Of a stretch of DNA of 64,000 nt, positions 10,212-24,698 are shown piece by piece. The notes beneath the pieces are model-generated. The model worked only from the letters and a program-made list of their open reading frames with translations. It was not told where the DNA came from and did not search any database. Position 1 is the stretch's first letter. Each line of letters begins with the position of its first letter. This stretch comes from Roseiflexus sp. RS-1. Its GTDB lineage: Bacteria; Chloroflexota; Chloroflexia; Chloroflexales; Roseiflexaceae. The stretch covers positions 1,550,001 through 1,614,000 of the forward strand of contig NC_009523.1 of the NCBI RefSeq assembly GCF_000016665.1. Direction: 5' to 3'. The translations under genes were made by a program, and so were the position numbers.

Positions 10212-10340
10212 GGCTTTCGCGGACTGTTTTTTACATTATGGTGTAGCGGGGGCGTTCCTCCAGAGGCTTTCCGGGCGTGTTGAGCCATCGCAGACCGCAC
10301 TCCGCGCCGCACTGCAATAAAATGCAATCGCCCCGGCGCG

Positions 10341-10349
10341 TGGTATAAT
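10341..10349 (+). promoter_or_regulatory. Extended -10 promoter for the large glycosyltransferase gene
   Basis: TGGTATAAT is a consensus -10 with the TGn extension. No good -35 is visible 17 bases upstream. It is the only promoter-like site before the gene starting near 10412. The 10212-10340 stretch shows no gene. Confidence 0.55.
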
Positions 10350-10411
10350 CAGGCTCCTGATGCACACATAACGGACAATACAGACGACTGTCTCGTCTGG
10401 TTATCCTGTGT

Positions 10412-13400
10412 ATGTGCAGAGAATACGCTGCGCGTCAACGCCAGATGCTATGCACGGTCTTCCCGTGTACGTGCGGAGAATACCCAACATCGATAGCAGC
10501 CGGTTCTCAGTTCTCAGTTCTTGGTTCTCAGTTCCTGGTGACAACTATCGCTCCCGCTACCCTGACACTCATCATTCTGGCGCTCATACTCACCGGCGCG
10601 TTGATCGCGCGCGCGTTGCCGGTTGCCTGGCGTAGCAGCGATCCGATCGAACGCTGGTTCGAATATGCCCTGATCGGCGCGCTGCTAAACGGATGGCTGG
10701 CATTCACCCTGGCGCAGATTGGCATCTTCTCTGCGCCGCTGCATGGCGCTGTGGTTGCCGTTCTGTGCATCATCGCCGCACTGATCCGCCGCGCATCCGG
10801 CAGTCAACCCGCCACGCCCGATGTTCAACCTTCAGCACCTGGCGTTCCACCTGCCGCGCCCGACGTTCCACCTTCAACGTTCAACGTTCCACCTGCCACG
10901 CCCGACGGTCCACCTTCAACGTTCAACGTTCCACCCGCCACGCCCGACGTTCCACCCGCCACGCCCGACGTTCCACCTGCCACGCCCGACGTTCCACCCG
11001 CCACGCCCGACGTTCCACCTTCCACGTTCAACGTTCCACCTTCAACGTCCGACGTTCCACCCGCCACGCCCGACGTGCCACCTTCAACCTTCAACCTTCA
11101 ACCTTCAACCTTCAACCTCCCACGCCCAACCTTCAACCTTCAACGCCCAACCTTCAACCTTCTCCTCTCCGCCATCCTGCTGCTCTTCGTCTTCCTCGTC
11201 ACTCCTCCGTTCGAGACGATCATCGGTGTGCGTGATGCGGGCGTCTATGCGAATGCAGGGTTCATCATGGTACGCACCGGTTCACTGACCTTTACCGATC
11301 CGCTGGTGGCGCAGATCGCCGCCGATCAACAATCTCCCGATCCATCGCTCGCCGATGCCGCCCGTCAGGCGGAAACCAACGTTCTCGGCGTGCAGAATGC
11401 GCAGCGCTTCATTGCCACCCGCCTGCGCGCCGCAGGGTTTTTTATCGATCAGGGCGACCTTGCACGCGGGCGTGTCGTCCCGCAAGGATTGCACCTCTTC
11501 TCCGCCTGGATTGGATTGCTCGCCGCGTTCTTCGGGATGCACGGCGGATTGCTGGCGCCAGCGGTTACCGGTCTACTGGGGGTCTGGAGCGTCGCTTTGC
11601 TCGGTCGGCGCATCGCCGGTCCGTGGGTCGGACTGCTGGCGGCGCTCTTCCTTGCGCTTAGTGCCGTTCAGGTCTGGTTCAGTCGCTATTCCACCGCCGA
11701 AACAACAGCGCAGTTCCTCATCTTTGCTGGACTCTACGCCTTCGCTAGAGCCTTCGGATCTTCGACGTTCAACGTTCAACGTTCCACACCCAACCTTCAA
11801 CCTTCAACCCTCAACGTTGAACGTTCAACGCCCAACGTTCCACTTTCCGCGTCCAACGTTCAACGTTCAACCTTCAACGTTCAACCTTCAACGTTCAACG
11901 TTCAACCTTCAACCTTCAACGTTCCACCTTCCACCAACGTTCAACCTTCAACGTTCAACGTTCCACCTTCCACCAACGTTCAACCTTCAACGTTCAACCT
12001 TCAACCTTCAACCTTCAACCTTCAACCTTCAACCTTCCACGCCCTGCTCGCCGGGCTGGCATTCGGACAACTCGCCCTGACGCGCATCGAGTTCTTCCTG
12101 GTCACAGGACCGCTGGCGCTCTACCTGATCTTCATCTGGCTTGCGCGCCGCTGGACGCTGCCGCACACTGCGCTGCTGGCGGGCGCCGGGGTGATGCTGC
12201 TCCACGCCGGATTGCAGATCGTGTTCCTGGCGCGCGCCTATTTCTTCGATACGCTCTTCGCCCGTCTGCAAGATTTTGCGCTCACCGCAGCCCTGGCGTT
12301 GCCGTTTCTCACCCCCACGTTGCGCCAGGTCTATCTGCTGCGCCCCTGCTCGCGCCTGACGATGCAACCATGCCCGCCGATCGCCGGGATGCCGCCGACC
12401 GCCGATGCACCGCTCAACTGGGCGCGTATCGGCACCGAACTTTTCGTCGTCATCCTGATCATCATCGCCTTGATCGTGGTGCGTCGCCTGAGTCTGGTCG
12501 CCCACTTCGTATCGCTGCTTGCGCGTCTGAGCCATCCGCTGCGCCTGATCGCTGCGGTTGTCGTCATTGTGCTGGGAGGGTATACGTACCTTATCCGCCC
12601 GCAGATCCTGTCGCCTGCGACCATCGCCGCGCTGCCCGCCTGCCTGACGCCGGCGCAACTGACCAGCCCACAGGGCGCGTGTCTGACCCTCCAGGGGTAT
12701 GTCGGGGCGCCGATTGCCACTCCCGCGTATGTCGATCCGCTCGCCGGATGGATCGATCATCTCATCGGTATGGCGCGCGGTCGTTCCAACCCGCCGCGCG
12801 AAGCCTGCATTGCGCTGCGCCGCGAGACGCTGCCGCCATCCGCCGATGGGCGCACCATGCCGGAAGTCCTTCGAGACGGTCTGATCCGCGAGGCGGACGT
12901 TGCGCCGGAGATCCTCGCCGATCTGCGCGCCTGCGACCGCTATGTGCTGCGTGACCTGTTCGGCGTGGCGCAGGCGAACCTGGTGCGCCTGGGATGGTAC
13001 CTGTCGCCGCTGGGGATTGCACTCGCGCTTGCCGGTCTGGCGCTGATGGTCTACCGCATCAACGCGACCTCCTGGCTGTTCCTGGTTATTGCCGCCGTTG
13101 CATCGGTGGTCTTCCTGCGGCTGACCTACGGCGCCAGCGATCAGCACTATATCTACATCATGCGACGCTACGTGCCGCACGTCTATCCGGCGTTCGCCAT
13201 CGGCATCGCTTACGCCATCGCGCATCTGACGCTCGATCTGCGATTGTTCGCCGATATGCTGCGATCCATCGCACGAAAGGCGCATCGCAACGCCTCAACA
13301 GGACTGCAACGTCCAACAACGTTCAACGTTCAAGGTTCAATAGCGTTCAACGTTCAAGGTTCAATGTTCAGGGTTCCACCTTCAACCCCCAACCTTCAAC

Positions 13401-19957: not shown

Positions 19958-19990
19958 TGGCTCTCAGCCTCACGGACTGTGTCAGCCTGT

Positions 19991-20106
19991 ATGGAGATTG
20001 AGAATTTATTCCGCTATACTGCGCTAGCCGTGGGGCTGAAGCCCTCGGCTAGCCAGGGCGAAGCCCGCCTGCGCGGGCTATGGCGGATTATTTACTCAAA
20101 GACCAT
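19991..20106 (+). mobile_element. 116-bp palindromic element, copy 1
   Basis: The element begins ATGGAGATTGAG and ends CTCAAAGACCAT, so its ends are imperfect inverted repeats of about 24 bp. The interior has nested hairpins (CTAGCCG...CGGCTAG, GCCCGC...GCGGGC). The flanks form a perfect 8-bp inverted repeat (GTCAGCCT before, AGGCTGAC after). Without the element these would make a hairpin with a GTTG loop, cut exactly in the middle. A copy of about 90% identity in the opposite orientation lies at 24475-24590. It is noncoding; a MITE-like nature is inferred. Confidence 0.75.
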
Positions 20107-20283
20107 TGAGGCTGACCGTTTGATTGTGCCTGCGATGATCTCCACTGCCTGTCGGCGCGTCTCTGCTGGCGCGTAACTTTTTTTCCACCAGGCTCTCAAG
20201 GAGGGGAGAACAGTTCAAGATAACTGACTACATCGCCATAAACCTACCCATGCCACTGACAAGGAGACGAAAGGGAAGCTCCG

Positions 20284-21045
20284 ATGCAGAGAGCACATTG
20301 GTATGCCGCCATCAATGTAGAAATCGAACCACCAGAGCACAAGCATCCGCGAGAGTCAGTTGGGATAGACGTTGGCATCAAAACGTTAGCTGTTCTCTCA
20401 GATGGCGTACAGTATGAAAACCAAGTACTGCTACGCTCAAGACTGAGAAAACTAAAGCGTTTGAACCGCGAATTATCCCGCCGACAAGAGGGAAGCGGTC
20501 GCTGGAACCGCACCAGGAAGAAGCTGGTGAAGCTCCACCGCCGAATAGCGAACAAGCGATTGGATTACACGCACAAGATGACAACCAGGATTGCGCGCAC
20601 ATACCGCATTATCGGCGTGGAAGATTTGAATGTCCCCGGAATGCTGCGTAACCGGCGCCTGGCTCTGTCAATCGCTGATGCCAGGTTTGGTGAGACTCAA
20701 CGACAGTTACGCTACAAGTCTGAGTGGTACGGCGGCATATTGGTAGAGGTTGACCGTTTCTTCCCCTCTAGTCGGCTATGCCCAATGTGCGGAGGAATCA
20801 AATCGGATCTGACGTTGCGTGACCGAATGTTTATTTGTGCGTGTGGATATACTGCTGATAGGGATGTGAATGCTGCTCAGAATATTGAGCGGGAAGCATT
20901 ACGTTTGATGAACAGAGGCCGGAGTGGGTTCACGGACTCTCTAAACGGACGTGGACAGGATATAAGACCTCTTGAGGCAATCCCGGATGAAGCGTCAAAA
21001 TGGCCGAAGAAAGGCGGCCTTCCAGACCTGCTGTGGTTTAGGTAG
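20284..21045 (+). pseudogene. tnpB: TnpB (IS200/IS605-type RuvC nuclease), N-terminally truncated
   Basis: A 253-residue remnant of a TnpB RNA-guided nuclease; full-length family members are about 370-420 residues. The RuvC aspartate (GIDVGIKTLAV), the glutamate (GVEDLNVPGM), the zinc finger (CPMCG...CACG) and the final aspartate (DRDVNAAQNI) all remain. The N-terminal guide-recognition part is absent: an in-frame stop at 20257 lies just upstream, and no TnpB-like sequence was found in other frames from 20165. No TnpA is adjacent. The remnant lies between the VWA gene and a Kelch-like gene. Confidence 0.8.
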
Positions 21046-21070
21046 GTTTGGTAAACCAGGTATATGCATC

Positions 21071-23659
21071 ATGACTCGAATGACACGCATGCCAGCCACG
21101 GTGCGCGCGCTGACACTCGTCGTCGCGCTGCTGACCGTTCTTGCGATCCTTCCACCCGCACCGGTCGCCGCCAGCGTGATCAAGGTTGTTGCCCTGGATG
21201 ATACTCAGCCGGAGTTCGGCGCCGGTTCACGCACCCTGACCGCAGTTATTCCAACGACGCTGAGCAATGATCCGATATCCGGGCAGGTGACCGAACCGTA
21301 TGCCGGCGCCAAACCCGGCGATCAGGGTGGGCTTGCCATGGCTGCCATTCGCGCACTGCGCTGGGGCGCCATCCCGGATAGCCCGCTCCCCGCAGCCCGC
21401 ACCGAAATCGGCGCAGCGGTCATCGGGAACACGATCTGGGTGGTCGGCGGTTCTTCAGGTGGCACGGTGCCGACCTATCACGACACGGTCTATCGCGGCA
21501 CGGTCAATACGAATTACGGACAGCCCGGCGCCGGAGTCATCAGCTGGACGACTTCCATATCATTGCCATCCGTCAGCCACGCAGATACATCGCCGTTCAA
21601 CAATAATCCGCTTGCGCCGCGAACCAACGCGGCGGTCGCCGCGCTGCGCACCGGCGGTAACGCGGGGTATCTCTACGTGATCGGCGGCGCTGTCGCCCCT
21701 GGGTCTACATTCTCGAGCAATTCGGTGATCGTCGGTGATGTCGATGCGAACGGGAACCTGACCTGGCGTACCTCGCCGACGTACAAACTTCCGCCAGGCG
21801 TCGGGCTGGAAGGCGCGCGCGCTTTTGTACATACAACCGCCGCCGGCAAGACATTCCTGTACGTCGTCGGCGGGCGAAACGATCCGCCCGGTGCGCCTCC
21901 GCCAACCCTTTCCAATCGCGTCTACTACGCCGAGATCAACCCGTCGAACGGTAATCTTAACCTCGGCGGCGACAACCGCACCTGGCAGTTTGTGACGATG
22001 CCGTCGAGCGTATGGAACACCGCCGTGACCGTCGGGCGCTATACCAGTGCAGACGGAACGTTGACGCAGGATCTGTTCTTCATCTACGGCGGTGGAACCA
22101 ACGCCGGTATCGAAAATATGGATACCGGCACCGTCTGGAAAGGGGTTATCAACCCGACCACCGGCGCGATCACCTGGGAGGATAGCACCACCGGCGGGAA
22201 TGCCGTTATTCCCGGCAATCGTAACAGTCACGGCGCCGTCGAGTTTAACGGCGCAATCTACCTGATCGGCGGACGCAGCGGCGGCACGATCAATCGCAAT
22301 GGCTATGCCTCCTATGTCGATCCGGCCAACCTGCGCATCTTCAAAGATGGAGCGCTCAACTTCTATCAGGACGACTTCGGCGCGCTGCCTTTTGCAGCAA
22401 ATCCTGGACGGCGCAATGCGGGTGTGGTGCTGGTGCCGACCAGCAACCCGAACTATGCGTTCGCCTACCTGATCGGCGGCACCGATGGAACCGCGCCGTC
22501 CAGTCAGGTCTTCCGCGCGACGATCGGACCCAACCTCGACGACCAGACCTTCTATCCGCCGACCGGCTACTACTACTCGAAGCCCTTCTCGATGCTCGAC
22601 CTGATCAACGAGCAGCAGGCCACCGTGCGTAAAATGACCTGGCTGACGAATATCGATCCGGCGAATGGCGGTGATATCGAAGTCGAGTACCGCGTCTACT
22701 CCCCATCGAGCGGCAACTGTGCCGACACAGAAGGTGGATGGACGCAGGCGCGTGATCCGGATGCCGGTGGAACGCGCTTCTCGAAGTTCAACCCGAGTGG
22801 CGCGGCGTATGCCATCAATGCCCAGGAGTATAGCGAGAGTCAGTTGCTCCCGCCGGGCAACTGCTTCCAGTACCGCCTCACCTTCCGCCGCGGCTCTGTC
22901 CAGAATGCCTCGCCGGTGCTGCTACGCCTGGGTATGGAAGTGATCGTTCCGGGCAACCCCGATCTGAACTGGCCCGTCAATGCCGTCACCACCACCCAGA
23001 ACGCCAATGGCACCACCAGAGGCGTCGAGGTGCGCCTGCGCAACCAGAACCTGACCGACAGCGGACCGACGCAACCGGCGAATGTGTGCCATGCATCGCA
23101 ACCGGGGTGCAATCCGGAGGGTACATTCTTCGTTGATGTGTTCATCTTCCCGCCGGGTGTAACGCCGATCTCGCCAACGCTACCGCTGTTCGCTCCTGGA
23201 GGCGATAGCCTGAGCAACCCGGCGCTTGCGCCATACCACCGCGCCTGTCTGCAAATCCCGAAATGGGTGATGCAGAAGGATACCACGTTCCTGATTGCGG
23301 AAACCTTCCGCTGGAGCGACATCAAAACGGTTGGCATCGATGGATGCGTCTCGGCTGCAACCAACGCCAGCAATGGAACCGGTAAAATCCTGCGCGACTT
23401 CCTTGATCAAGGCAGCGGAACCTACAAGGTCATTCTGGTTGCCGACACTCACACCGACCTGAAAGGATTGGTGTACGAGTCCGATGTGCCAAGCGGCGAC
23501 CATGTGGCGGAACGGAACAATGTCAGCGCCATCTTCGACGTCGTGTTTGTGGCGGGAGGTGCGCCGCCGCCGCCTGATAGCGGTCCTCAACCGCCGCCGG
23601 ATAACCCGCCGCCTGATAATGGCATCAGGCGCGTCTTCCTGCCGCTGGTGACTCGTTGA
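21071..23659 (+). CDS. Secreted Kelch-like beta-propeller protein
   Basis: An 862-residue exported protein. MTRMTRMPATVRALTLVVA begins a classical signal peptide with likely cleavage after PVAAS. Repeats of about 60-90 residues with YVIGG, YVVGG, YGGG or YLIGG strands, each preceded by R-x-x-A/G, mark a galactose-oxidase/Kelch-type propeller at about residues 60-500. The rest is beta-rich, perhaps CARDB-like. A PPP-D-G linker leads to the C terminus RRVFLPLVTR. ATG 21071 is chosen over the longer open frame because the signal peptide starts there. The TGA stop lies inside the first unit of a heptamer array. It may be a surface component of the Tad region; the ligand is unknown. Confidence 0.75.
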   Translation: MTRMTRMPATVRALTLVVALLTVLAILPPAPVAASVIKVVALDDTQPEFGAGSRTLTAVIPTTLSNDPISGQVTEPYAGAKPGDQGGLAMAAIRALRWGAIPDSPLPAARTEIGAAVIGNTIWVVGGSSGGTVPTYHDTVYRGTVNTNYGQPGAGVISWTTSISLPSVSHADTSPFNNNPLAPRTNAAVAALRTGGNAGYLYVIGGAVAPGSTFSSNSVIVGDVDANGNLTWRTSPTYKLPPGVGLEGARAFVHTTAAGKTFLYVVGGRNDPPGAPPPTLSNRVYYAEINPSNGNLNLGGDNRTWQFVTMPSSVWNTAVTVGRYTSADGTLTQDLFFIYGGGTNAGIENMDTGTVWKGVINPTTGAITWEDSTTGGNAVIPGNRNSHGAVEFNGAIYLIGGRSGGTINRNGYASYVDPANLRIFKDGALNFYQDDFGALPFAANPGRRNAGVVLVPTSNPNYAFAYLIGGTDGTAPSSQVFRATIGPNLDDQTFYPPTGYYYSKPFSMLDLINEQQATVRKMTWLTNIDPANGGDIEVEYRVYSPSSGNCADTEGGWTQARDPDAGGTRFSKFNPSGAAYAINAQEYSESQLLPPGNCFQYRLTFRRGSVQNASPVLLRLGMEVIVPGNPDLNWPVNAVTTTQNANGTTRGVEVRLRNQNLTDSGPTQPANVCHASQPGCNPEGTFFVDVFIFPPGVTPISPTLPLFAPGGDSLSNPALAPYHRACLQIPKWVMQKDTTFLIAETFRWSDIKTVGIDGCVSAATNASNGTGKILRDFLDQGSGTYKVILVADTHTDLKGLVYESDVPSGDHVAERNNVSAIFDVVFVAGGAPPPPDSGPQPPPDNPPPDNGIRRVFLPLVTR

Positions 23660-23781
23660 GCGTTGAAGGTTGCGCGTTGAAGGTTGCACGTTGAAGGTTG
23701 CACGTTGAAGGTTGAAGGTTGAAGGTTGCACGTTGAAGGTTGCACGTTGAAGGTTGGCGCGTTGAAGGTTCAACGTTGAAC
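23655..23781 (-). repeat. Heptanucleotide array E (reverse orientation)
   Basis: Eighteen units read on the plus strand as GTTGAAG, GTTGCAC and similar, in register except for one 8-base unit at 23753-23760. It starts with GTTGAGC, whose TGA is the stop codon of the Kelch-like gene. It abuts the 163-bp repeat four bases later. Confidence 0.9.
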
Positions 23782-23785
23782 TTTC

Positions 23786-23948
23786 GTAACTACTCAGGCT
23801 GCCTGGCGTTCAGCGATTGAAATCGCCTCTGGAAGGCTTTTCGCCGGGCGTCCACCTGCGTGGACGCTGCCACGGCGACCGCCCAGGCGGTCGCCCGGCG
23901 CGAAGCGTCCTCTCAGGCGCGGTTTCAACCGTACGCCTGAGCAGTTAC
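23786..23948. repeat. 163-bp multi-hairpin repeat, copy 1
   Basis: The ends GTAACTACTCAGG and CCTGAGCAGTTAC are 13-bp inverted repeats with one mismatch. Inside are successive hairpins: CGATT/AATCG, GCGTCCAC/GTGGACGC, GGCGACCGCC/GGCGGTCGCC and TCAGGCG/CGCCTGA. There is no coding capacity. A second complete copy starts at 24032. Confidence 0.8.
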
Positions 23949-24031
23949 CAACATTTCAACGTTCAACGTTCCAACCTTCAACGTTCCCACGTTCAACGCT
24001 CCCACGTTCCCACGTTCAACGCTCAACGTTC
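23949..24031 (+). repeat. Mixed 7/8-bp repeat spacer between repeat copies 1 and 2
   Basis: TTCAAC-type units (GTTCAAC, GTTCCAAC, CTTCAAC, GTTCCCAC, GCTCCCAC) of seven or eight bases fill the interval between two multi-hairpin repeats. Confidence 0.75.
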
Positions 24032-24193
24032 GTAACTACTCAGCCGCCTGGCGTTCAGCGATTGAAATCGCCTCTGGAAGGCTTTTCGCCGGGCGTCCAC
24101 CTGCGTGGACGCTGCCACGGCGACCGCCCAGGCGGTCGCCCGGCGCGAAGCGTCCGCTCAGGCGCGGTTTCAACCGCACGCCTGAGCAGTTAC
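24032..24193. repeat. 163-bp multi-hairpin repeat, copy 2
   Basis: Almost identical to copy 1, one base shorter, with the same terminal inverted repeats and internal hairpins. The hairpin TCAGGCGCGGTTT / CAACCG...CGCCTGA is uninterrupted, so it shows the empty target of the 116-bp element found in the composite copy downstream. Confidence 0.8.
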
Positions 24194-24253
24194 GAACATT
24201 TCAACGTTCAACGTTCCAACCTTCAACGTTCCCACGTTCAACGCTCAACGTTC
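24194..24253 (+). repeat. Heptamer spacer between repeat copies 2 and 3
   Basis: Degenerate TTCAAC-type units (GTTCAAC, GTTCCAAC, CTTCAAC, GTTCCCAC, GCTCAAC), equivalent to the spacer after copy 1 but shorter. Confidence 0.7.
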
Positions 24254-24613
24254 GTAACTACTCAGGCCGCCTGGCGTTCAGCGATTGAAATCGCCTCTGG
24301 AAGGCTTTTCGCCGGGCGTCCACCTGCGTGGACGCTGCCACGGTGATCGCCCTGGCGTTCAGCGATTGAAATCGCCTCTGGAAGGCTTTTCGCCGGGCGT
24401 CCACCTGCGTGGACGCTGCCACGGCGACCGCCCAGGTGGTCGCCCGGCGCGAAGCGTCCGCTCAGGCGCGGTTTATGGTCTTTGAATAAATAATCCGGTA
24501 TAGCCCGCGCAGGCGGGCTTTGCCCTGGTTAGCCGAGGGCTTCAGCCCCACGGCTAGCGCGGTAGAGCGGATTTAATTTTCAATCTCCATCAACCGCACG
24601 CCTGAGCAGTTAC
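24254..24613. repeat. Composite multi-hairpin repeat, copies 3 and 4, interrupted
   Basis: Copy 3 keeps the left end (GTAACTACTCAGG) but stops after CGGTGATCGC near 24350. There it joins the CCTGGCGTTCAGCG of copy 4, which lacks its own left end. Copy 4 is split by the 116-bp element (24475-24590) and finishes with CCTGAGCAGTTAC. The junction looks like recombination between tandem copies. A few TTCAAC units follow to about 24642. Confidence 0.8.
24475..24590 (-). mobile_element. 116-bp palindromic element, copy 2
   Basis: The reverse-oriented partner of the 19991-20106 element, the same length and about 90% identical. It is inserted between CGCGGTTT and CAACCGC of a multi-hairpin repeat. 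Comparison with the intact copies at 23786 and 24032 shows no lost or duplicated base, and the insertion point is the loop of the CGGTT/AACCG hairpin. Confidence 0.8.
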
Positions 24614-24698
24614 GAACCTTCAACCTTCAACGTGCAACGTTTCTTCCACCTGTCAAGTCATTGATGCCCTGCGATACTAATCAGGGCTTGATCTCGTG

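Follow-up and report, generated by a model that had tools for sequence, protein, structure and literature searches.

Insertion of a self-nesting MITE and its IS630-family partner at palindrome axes without target duplication in Roseiflexus sp. RS-1

Integration by transposases of the mariner/Tc1/IS630 group is described as strictly confined to TA, with a stagger of 2 bp (PMC5481204), and insertions of ISY100 lie almost exclusively at TA, with the TA duplicated (PMC2170065). The RUP element of pneumococcus, an IS630-linked miniature inverted-repeat transposable element (MITE), likewise inserts at TA (PMC2229807). Here we describe a 116-bp MITE of Roseiflexus sp. RS-1 and a 1,256-bp insertion sequence (IS) of the IS630 family from the same genome, both of which are found at palindrome axes. 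The MITE was encountered in a 64,000-nucleotide stretch, hereafter the window, that comprises positions 1,550,001-1,614,000 of the single 5,801,598-bp contig (NC_009523.1) on which all genome-wide counts are based. The element resembles RUP in being ~100 bp long, non-coding, present in more than 100 copies and furnished with an end shared with an IS630 element. Unlike RUP, it sits on palindrome axes, leaves no duplication and nests within itself.

Other mobile elements share single features with this system. Insertion into palindromic repeats is known for ISs that target repetitive extragenic palindromic (REP) sequences; these have been reported from the IS3, IS110, IS4, IS256 and IS5 families, and not from IS630 (PMC1525189). 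Such elements aim at particular repeat sequences, whereas the present one uses many unrelated palindromes of the central form TN^NA, where the caret marks the insertion point. Spy, of the eukaryotic PHIS superfamily, also achieves duplication-free DDE transposition into a short palindrome, AAATTT, but belongs to a different superfamily and has a fixed sequence target (PMC4482050). The REP-associated tyrosine transposase (RAYT)/REP and IS200/IS605 systems have in common with our element a hairpin-based biology and the absence of duplication, yet they rely on a Y1 HUH enzyme and lack the terminal inverted repeats that the MITE possesses. No palindrome-targeted IS630 element was found in the literature searched, a search whose reach excluded ISfinder and most subscription papers.

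Two copies of the MITE lie in the window. Copy 1 (19991-20106, plus strand) served as the reference query (100%), and about 42 full-length copies are present among the genome matches listed. It consists of an A half (19991-20038), which begins with the A-type terminal repeat ATGGAGATTGAGAATTTATTCCG (19991-20013, plus strand; pattern match with 0 mismatches), and a B half (20039-20106), which ends with the B-type terminal repeat ATGGTCTTTGAGTAAATAATCCG (20084-20106, minus strand; pattern match). The axis of an apical hairpin, GGGCT(g/a)AGCCC (20033-20044; here and below a stroke marks the axis), falls between 20038 and 20039, and this hairpin is unoccupied in copy 1. Copy 2 (24475-24590) is inverted and also 116 bp long; 106 of 116 positions are identical (91.4%), matching the similarity of about 90% given in the original prediction, which was made from the letters of the window. 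Copy 1 had been described as splitting an 8-bp inverted repeat in mid-loop, and its flanks, GTCAGCCTgt/tgAGGCTGAC, indeed place the junction at the exact axis of a palindrome with left arm GTCAGCCT (19981-19988, plus strand) and right arm AGGCTGAC (20109-20116, plus strand). The orthologous site is empty in a congener, where the alignment spans the junction to within 1 nt. Copy 2 is likewise centered exactly, between GCGGTTt (arm GCGGTT, 24468-24473, plus strand) and cAACCGC (arm AACCGC, 24592-24597, plus strand). Its CGGTT/AACCG host hairpin belongs to a repeat that, as predicted, occurs empty twice nearby (GCGGTTTCAACCG at 23919-23931 and 24164-24176, both plus strand), and by comparison with these the joined flanks yield GGTTTCAACC with no base gained or lost.

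In the window the end motif is matched 4 times versus 0.22 expected, and the pattern for the MITE terminus has 677 matches in the genome versus 1 for a reversed-pattern control. We also built weight matrices for both end types (A, ATGRAGATTGA..; B, ATGGTCTTTGA..) and applied them to an unbiased 1.6-Mb sample made up of 80 stretches of 20 kb at even spacing, which yielded 237 ends compared with 0 in reversed sequence. The element is a MITE with one A-type and one B-type end that exists in hundreds of copies. Chance can be excluded as an explanation, because the end motifs are in excess in both window and genome and because independent sites show the palindrome signal again.

To characterize the junctions, we considered 42 well-formed insertions outside other MITEs, which represent 19 host families, 16 of them singletons. 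Direct repeats at these 42 junctions measure 0 nt in 30 cases, 1 nt in 8 and 2 nt in 4; no consistent target duplication was found among them, and TA duplication is absent. A control in which flanks were shuffled among sites showed no contrast, as a few families account for most hosts; random-position and register-shift controls on the unrelated hosts were used instead. For the 16 unrelated hosts, on average 4.94 of the 8 positions outside the loop are complementary in the exact register, versus 2.07 at random, with 3.31 the largest of 20,000 resampled random means. A register shift of 1-3 nt reduces pairing to 1.4-2.2 positions. At least 4 of 8 pairs form in 13 of the 16. The non-self host met most often is another abundant hairpin repeat, GACCGAAAT(xy)ATTTCGGTC (L031-L110, for example L084 at 10299-10420), of which all 20 occupied half-sites are split between x and y and about 20 copies are empty. 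The original prediction had named asymmetric flanks or a consistent duplication in further copies as evidence against insertion at hairpin centers; genome-wide, most copies with unrelated flanks are symmetric and no duplication is consistent.

Empty sites confirm that no TA was duplicated. When joined flanks were searched within the genus, nine orthologous sites, that of window copy 1 included, proved to be unoccupied in a relative, where the sequence runs on through the junction (to within 0-2 nt); three further sites are ambiguous. In the case of L002, the insertion breaks a gene close to the 3′ end; once joined, the flanks read through EIEAELAARGYTRDELTCGAYVIVARRTT to a stop in the frame of the relative's intact gene.

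What most hosts have in common is complementarity. Across 26 independent hosts, a set that includes hosts of related transposons, arm positions 3-7 carry 0.07-0.26 bit per position and are nonetheless 58-85% complementary, while position 2 is mostly T..A (0.98 bit). No constant tetranucleotide was found at the left flank, where sequences vary and only a T at -2 is preferred. The target can be written as TN^NA at the center of an arbitrary palindrome. At these hosts, insertion is shown to depend on pairing and not on sequence.

The original prediction reported no matching autonomous element. This is true of the window, but elsewhere in the genome three recurrent segments of 1,256-1,258 bp with B-type ends on both sides encode an IS630-family transposase. 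The partner is present in 12 copies genome-wide, none of them in the window, and all 12 carry terminal inverted repeats of the ATGG[AT]CTTTGAA..ATCCG type at both ends. Both IS ends are of the type seen at the B end of the MITE, whereas the A end differs at several positions; the MITE is thus a short, non-coding element that shares its B end with an autonomous element of the same genome. All 12 copies reside in the apical loop of a MITE, at the same base and without duplication; this loop, equivalent to the apical hairpin of copy 1, also receives other MITE copies. The machinery suspected initially, of Y1 or REP-like type, is not supported; the autonomous element that matches encodes an IS630/Tc1/mariner DDE transposase and has the same terminal repeats. 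On the basis of the shared ends and shared target, the IS630 element probably mobilizes the MITE in trans.

The transposase scores 124.6 bits against NCBIfam NF033545 (IS630; cut-off 100) and 1e-18 against PF13358 (DDE_3). A search of the PDB by sequence returned nothing useful. A structural model of the main reading frame, orf2, has a mean pLDDT (predicted local distance difference test score) of 74.6, and a structure search with it places Mos1, Sleeping Beauty and Metnase closest. Thus, the element is like known IS630/Tc1-mariner members (ISY100, IS630, Mos1) in its DDE_3 transposase, terminal inverted repeats, length of ~1.2 kb and Mos1-like fold. It is unlike them in coding organization, with two open reading frames (ORFs) that meet at TTTTTCCCCC and need a frameshift, and in the 63 residues that separate the second D from the E in the own-genome copies. 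The most pronounced difference concerns the target: the TA site with TA duplication that characterizes the family is lacking in all 12 IS copies and in the 42 non-self MITE insertions. An ordinary IS630 of the same genome (L209, genome positions 1631954-1632882) lies in a MITE arm at CTAG with the TA duplicated.

When ends in the 1.6-Mb sample are parsed as brackets, matched insertions and nested arrays (AABB, AAABBB) emerge, such as [A 48 [A 116 B] 68 B], some of them three or more levels deep. A whole element lies between the halves of another at the apical loop, and this loop is the site of 53 of the 82 distinct insertions in the sample. The second hairpin of the MITE, a side hairpin with a 4-nt loop, contains no insertions among the nested insertions examined. 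MITEs of a congener and of another genus nest likewise. Comparison of these genomes (G001/G009) indicates that the congener has kept many MITEs while its transposase copies have mostly decayed; in the other genus the MITEs are ~84% identical, and a transposase search there gave no match.

Relatives of the transposase with 39-58% identity occur in an Anaerolineae metagenome-assembled genome, an unclassified bacterium, a proteobacterium and further Chloroflexota. Their insertion sites include CCGATTG/CAATCGG (L155), CTCACGCTA/TAGCGTGAG (L156), a 16-bp palindrome with one mismatch (L161), GGGCCCgATt/cATtGGGCCC (L164), AGTGCGTTg/aAACGCACT (L170) and the imperfect palindrome CCGcCTg/tAGcCGG; for L136 and L165 the palindromes are weak. 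Eight palindrome-targeting transposases split from three ordinary IS630s in a tree with support of 100/100, and plasmid IS630s are only ~25% identical. Because relatives in other bacteria insert in this manner, palindrome-axis insertion without duplication is a trait of the clade. The extra segment between the second D and the E appears not to be required, since the transposases of L170 and L164, with ~34-38 residues at this position (counted by eye), also hit palindromes.

We consider it probable that the MITE is moved in trans by the 1,256-bp IS630-family element, and that the clade of this element inserts at palindrome axes of a folded target with zero stagger. It also seems reasonably likely that this IS630/Tc1-mariner clade recognizes folded DNA, namely the tips of cruciforms or hairpins, rather than sequence, and joins its ends at the tips. 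Instead of the canonical TA target, the transposase would use palindromes with a closing T..A (TN^NA) and insert precisely at their axis. The two 3′ ends of the transposon would attack at the tips of the two hairpins; in the linear sequence these tips face each other directly, so that both ends would be joined with zero stagger and nothing would be duplicated. As the MITE itself is such a hairpin, its own tip would be a preferred target, giving rise to nested A(n)B(n) arrays. The target is most likely folded DNA, either an extruded cruciform or a single-strand hairpin, and the clade is best read as a new IS630 subgroup that targets such DNA.

The same transposase might instead act on linear duplex, with the palindrome read by symmetric protein contacts, in the way proposed for IS30-like or regulator-like recognition, and with no cruciform involved. 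The base preference at position 2 is genuine, and DDE recombinases usually have palindromic target consensus sites (PMC5481204). However, a protein on linear duplex cannot detect the self-complementarity of arbitrary sequence, and the arms of unrelated hosts pair without a common sequence at positions 3-7. The unused side hairpin also argues against this explanation, which we regard as unlikely. Alternatively, hairpin-processing nucleases such as SbcCD could cut palindrome tips, the transposase would only excise, and the excised transposon would be captured by end joining. This scheme would explain zero duplication and the exact axis with no special strand transfer. Yet end joining is usually ragged, whereas these junctions are base-exact: in dozens of cases the ends are intact and neither loop nucleotide has been lost. 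The trait also tracks the transposase clade in hosts that belong to different phyla. Such capture is therefore quite improbable.

Even less can be said for the idea that nested arrays were built as A and B halves underwent tandem duplication independently of each other. The numbers of detected A and B halves are unequal in some arrays and nested orientation is nearly always identical, as duplication might produce. Nevertheless, neighboring halves come from different subfamilies, the halves are balanced in many arrays, one nested copy is inverted (L084), and the identical point is occupied 12 times by 1,256-bp IS copies, which makes this route very improbable. Single-strand transposition by a Y1 enzyme (IS200/IS605 or RAYT/REP) would fit a hairpin-rich element that causes no duplication, and the genome contains two Y1 (PF01797) genes. 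By gene count these are greatly outnumbered by the 12 IS630 copies with matching ends. The MITE has true terminal inverted repeats, one type of which occurs at either end of a DDE element; the insertions lack a fixed tetranucleotide on their 5′ side, and the 12 IS630 copies have the same ends and target. We give this possibility almost no credence.

Several observations weigh against insertion into folded DNA by this clade. A palindrome is absent from three of the 16 unrelated hosts (at most 2 of 8 pairs), and at relative L136 only 2 of 7 pairs form, that is, no palindrome. The relatives are few and the tree is small. Extrusion of cruciforms with arms of 5-6 bp is energetically demanding. Finally, 55 of 56 MITE-in-MITE insertions have the orientation of the copy that hosts them (55:1; for example L081, L103 and L018/L084), a bias that attack on folded tips does not predict. 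Strand-specific folding was rejected as its cause, as the top and bottom strands fold equally well, and a single founder composite was rejected given the diversity of the outer copies. The loop dinucleotide was discarded as an orientation signal: normalized non-self loops include GA 12 times and TC 10 times, and the loop bases thus do not fix orientation. Replichore counts, which address replication-strand bias, reveal only a moderate imbalance. In hairpins other than the MITE's own, insertions seem randomly oriented (8:6 in the GACCGAAAT hairpin), and the ratio is 9:3 for ISs within MITEs, both ratios being counted by eye.

The Rfam model RF01356 (CRISPR-DR28) matches the window at 20057-20080 and 24501-24524. 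A clustered regularly interspaced short palindromic repeats (CRISPR) identity was rejected, because the matched segments are the side hairpins of the two MITE copies. Arrays of 68-bp B halves elsewhere in the genome could be mistaken for CRISPR arrays in the same way. A TnpB-like ORF of 253 aa (20284-21045; identified by eye) starts 178 bp past copy 1, and the surroundings of copy 2 (23700-24640) contain clustered 14-bp direct repeats of the CACGTTGAAGGTTG type together with ~204-bp repeats.

A natural clade that inserts scarlessly at the axes of arbitrary palindromes would represent a new mode of target selection for a much-studied DDE superfamily. A MITE that targets itself accounts for large nested hairpin arrays that are mistakable for CRISPR or tandem repeats. 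If the proposed recognition of folded DNA is true, each insertion would mark a palindrome that was folded, and the collection of insertions would then report on the extrusion of cruciforms or hairpins inside living cells.
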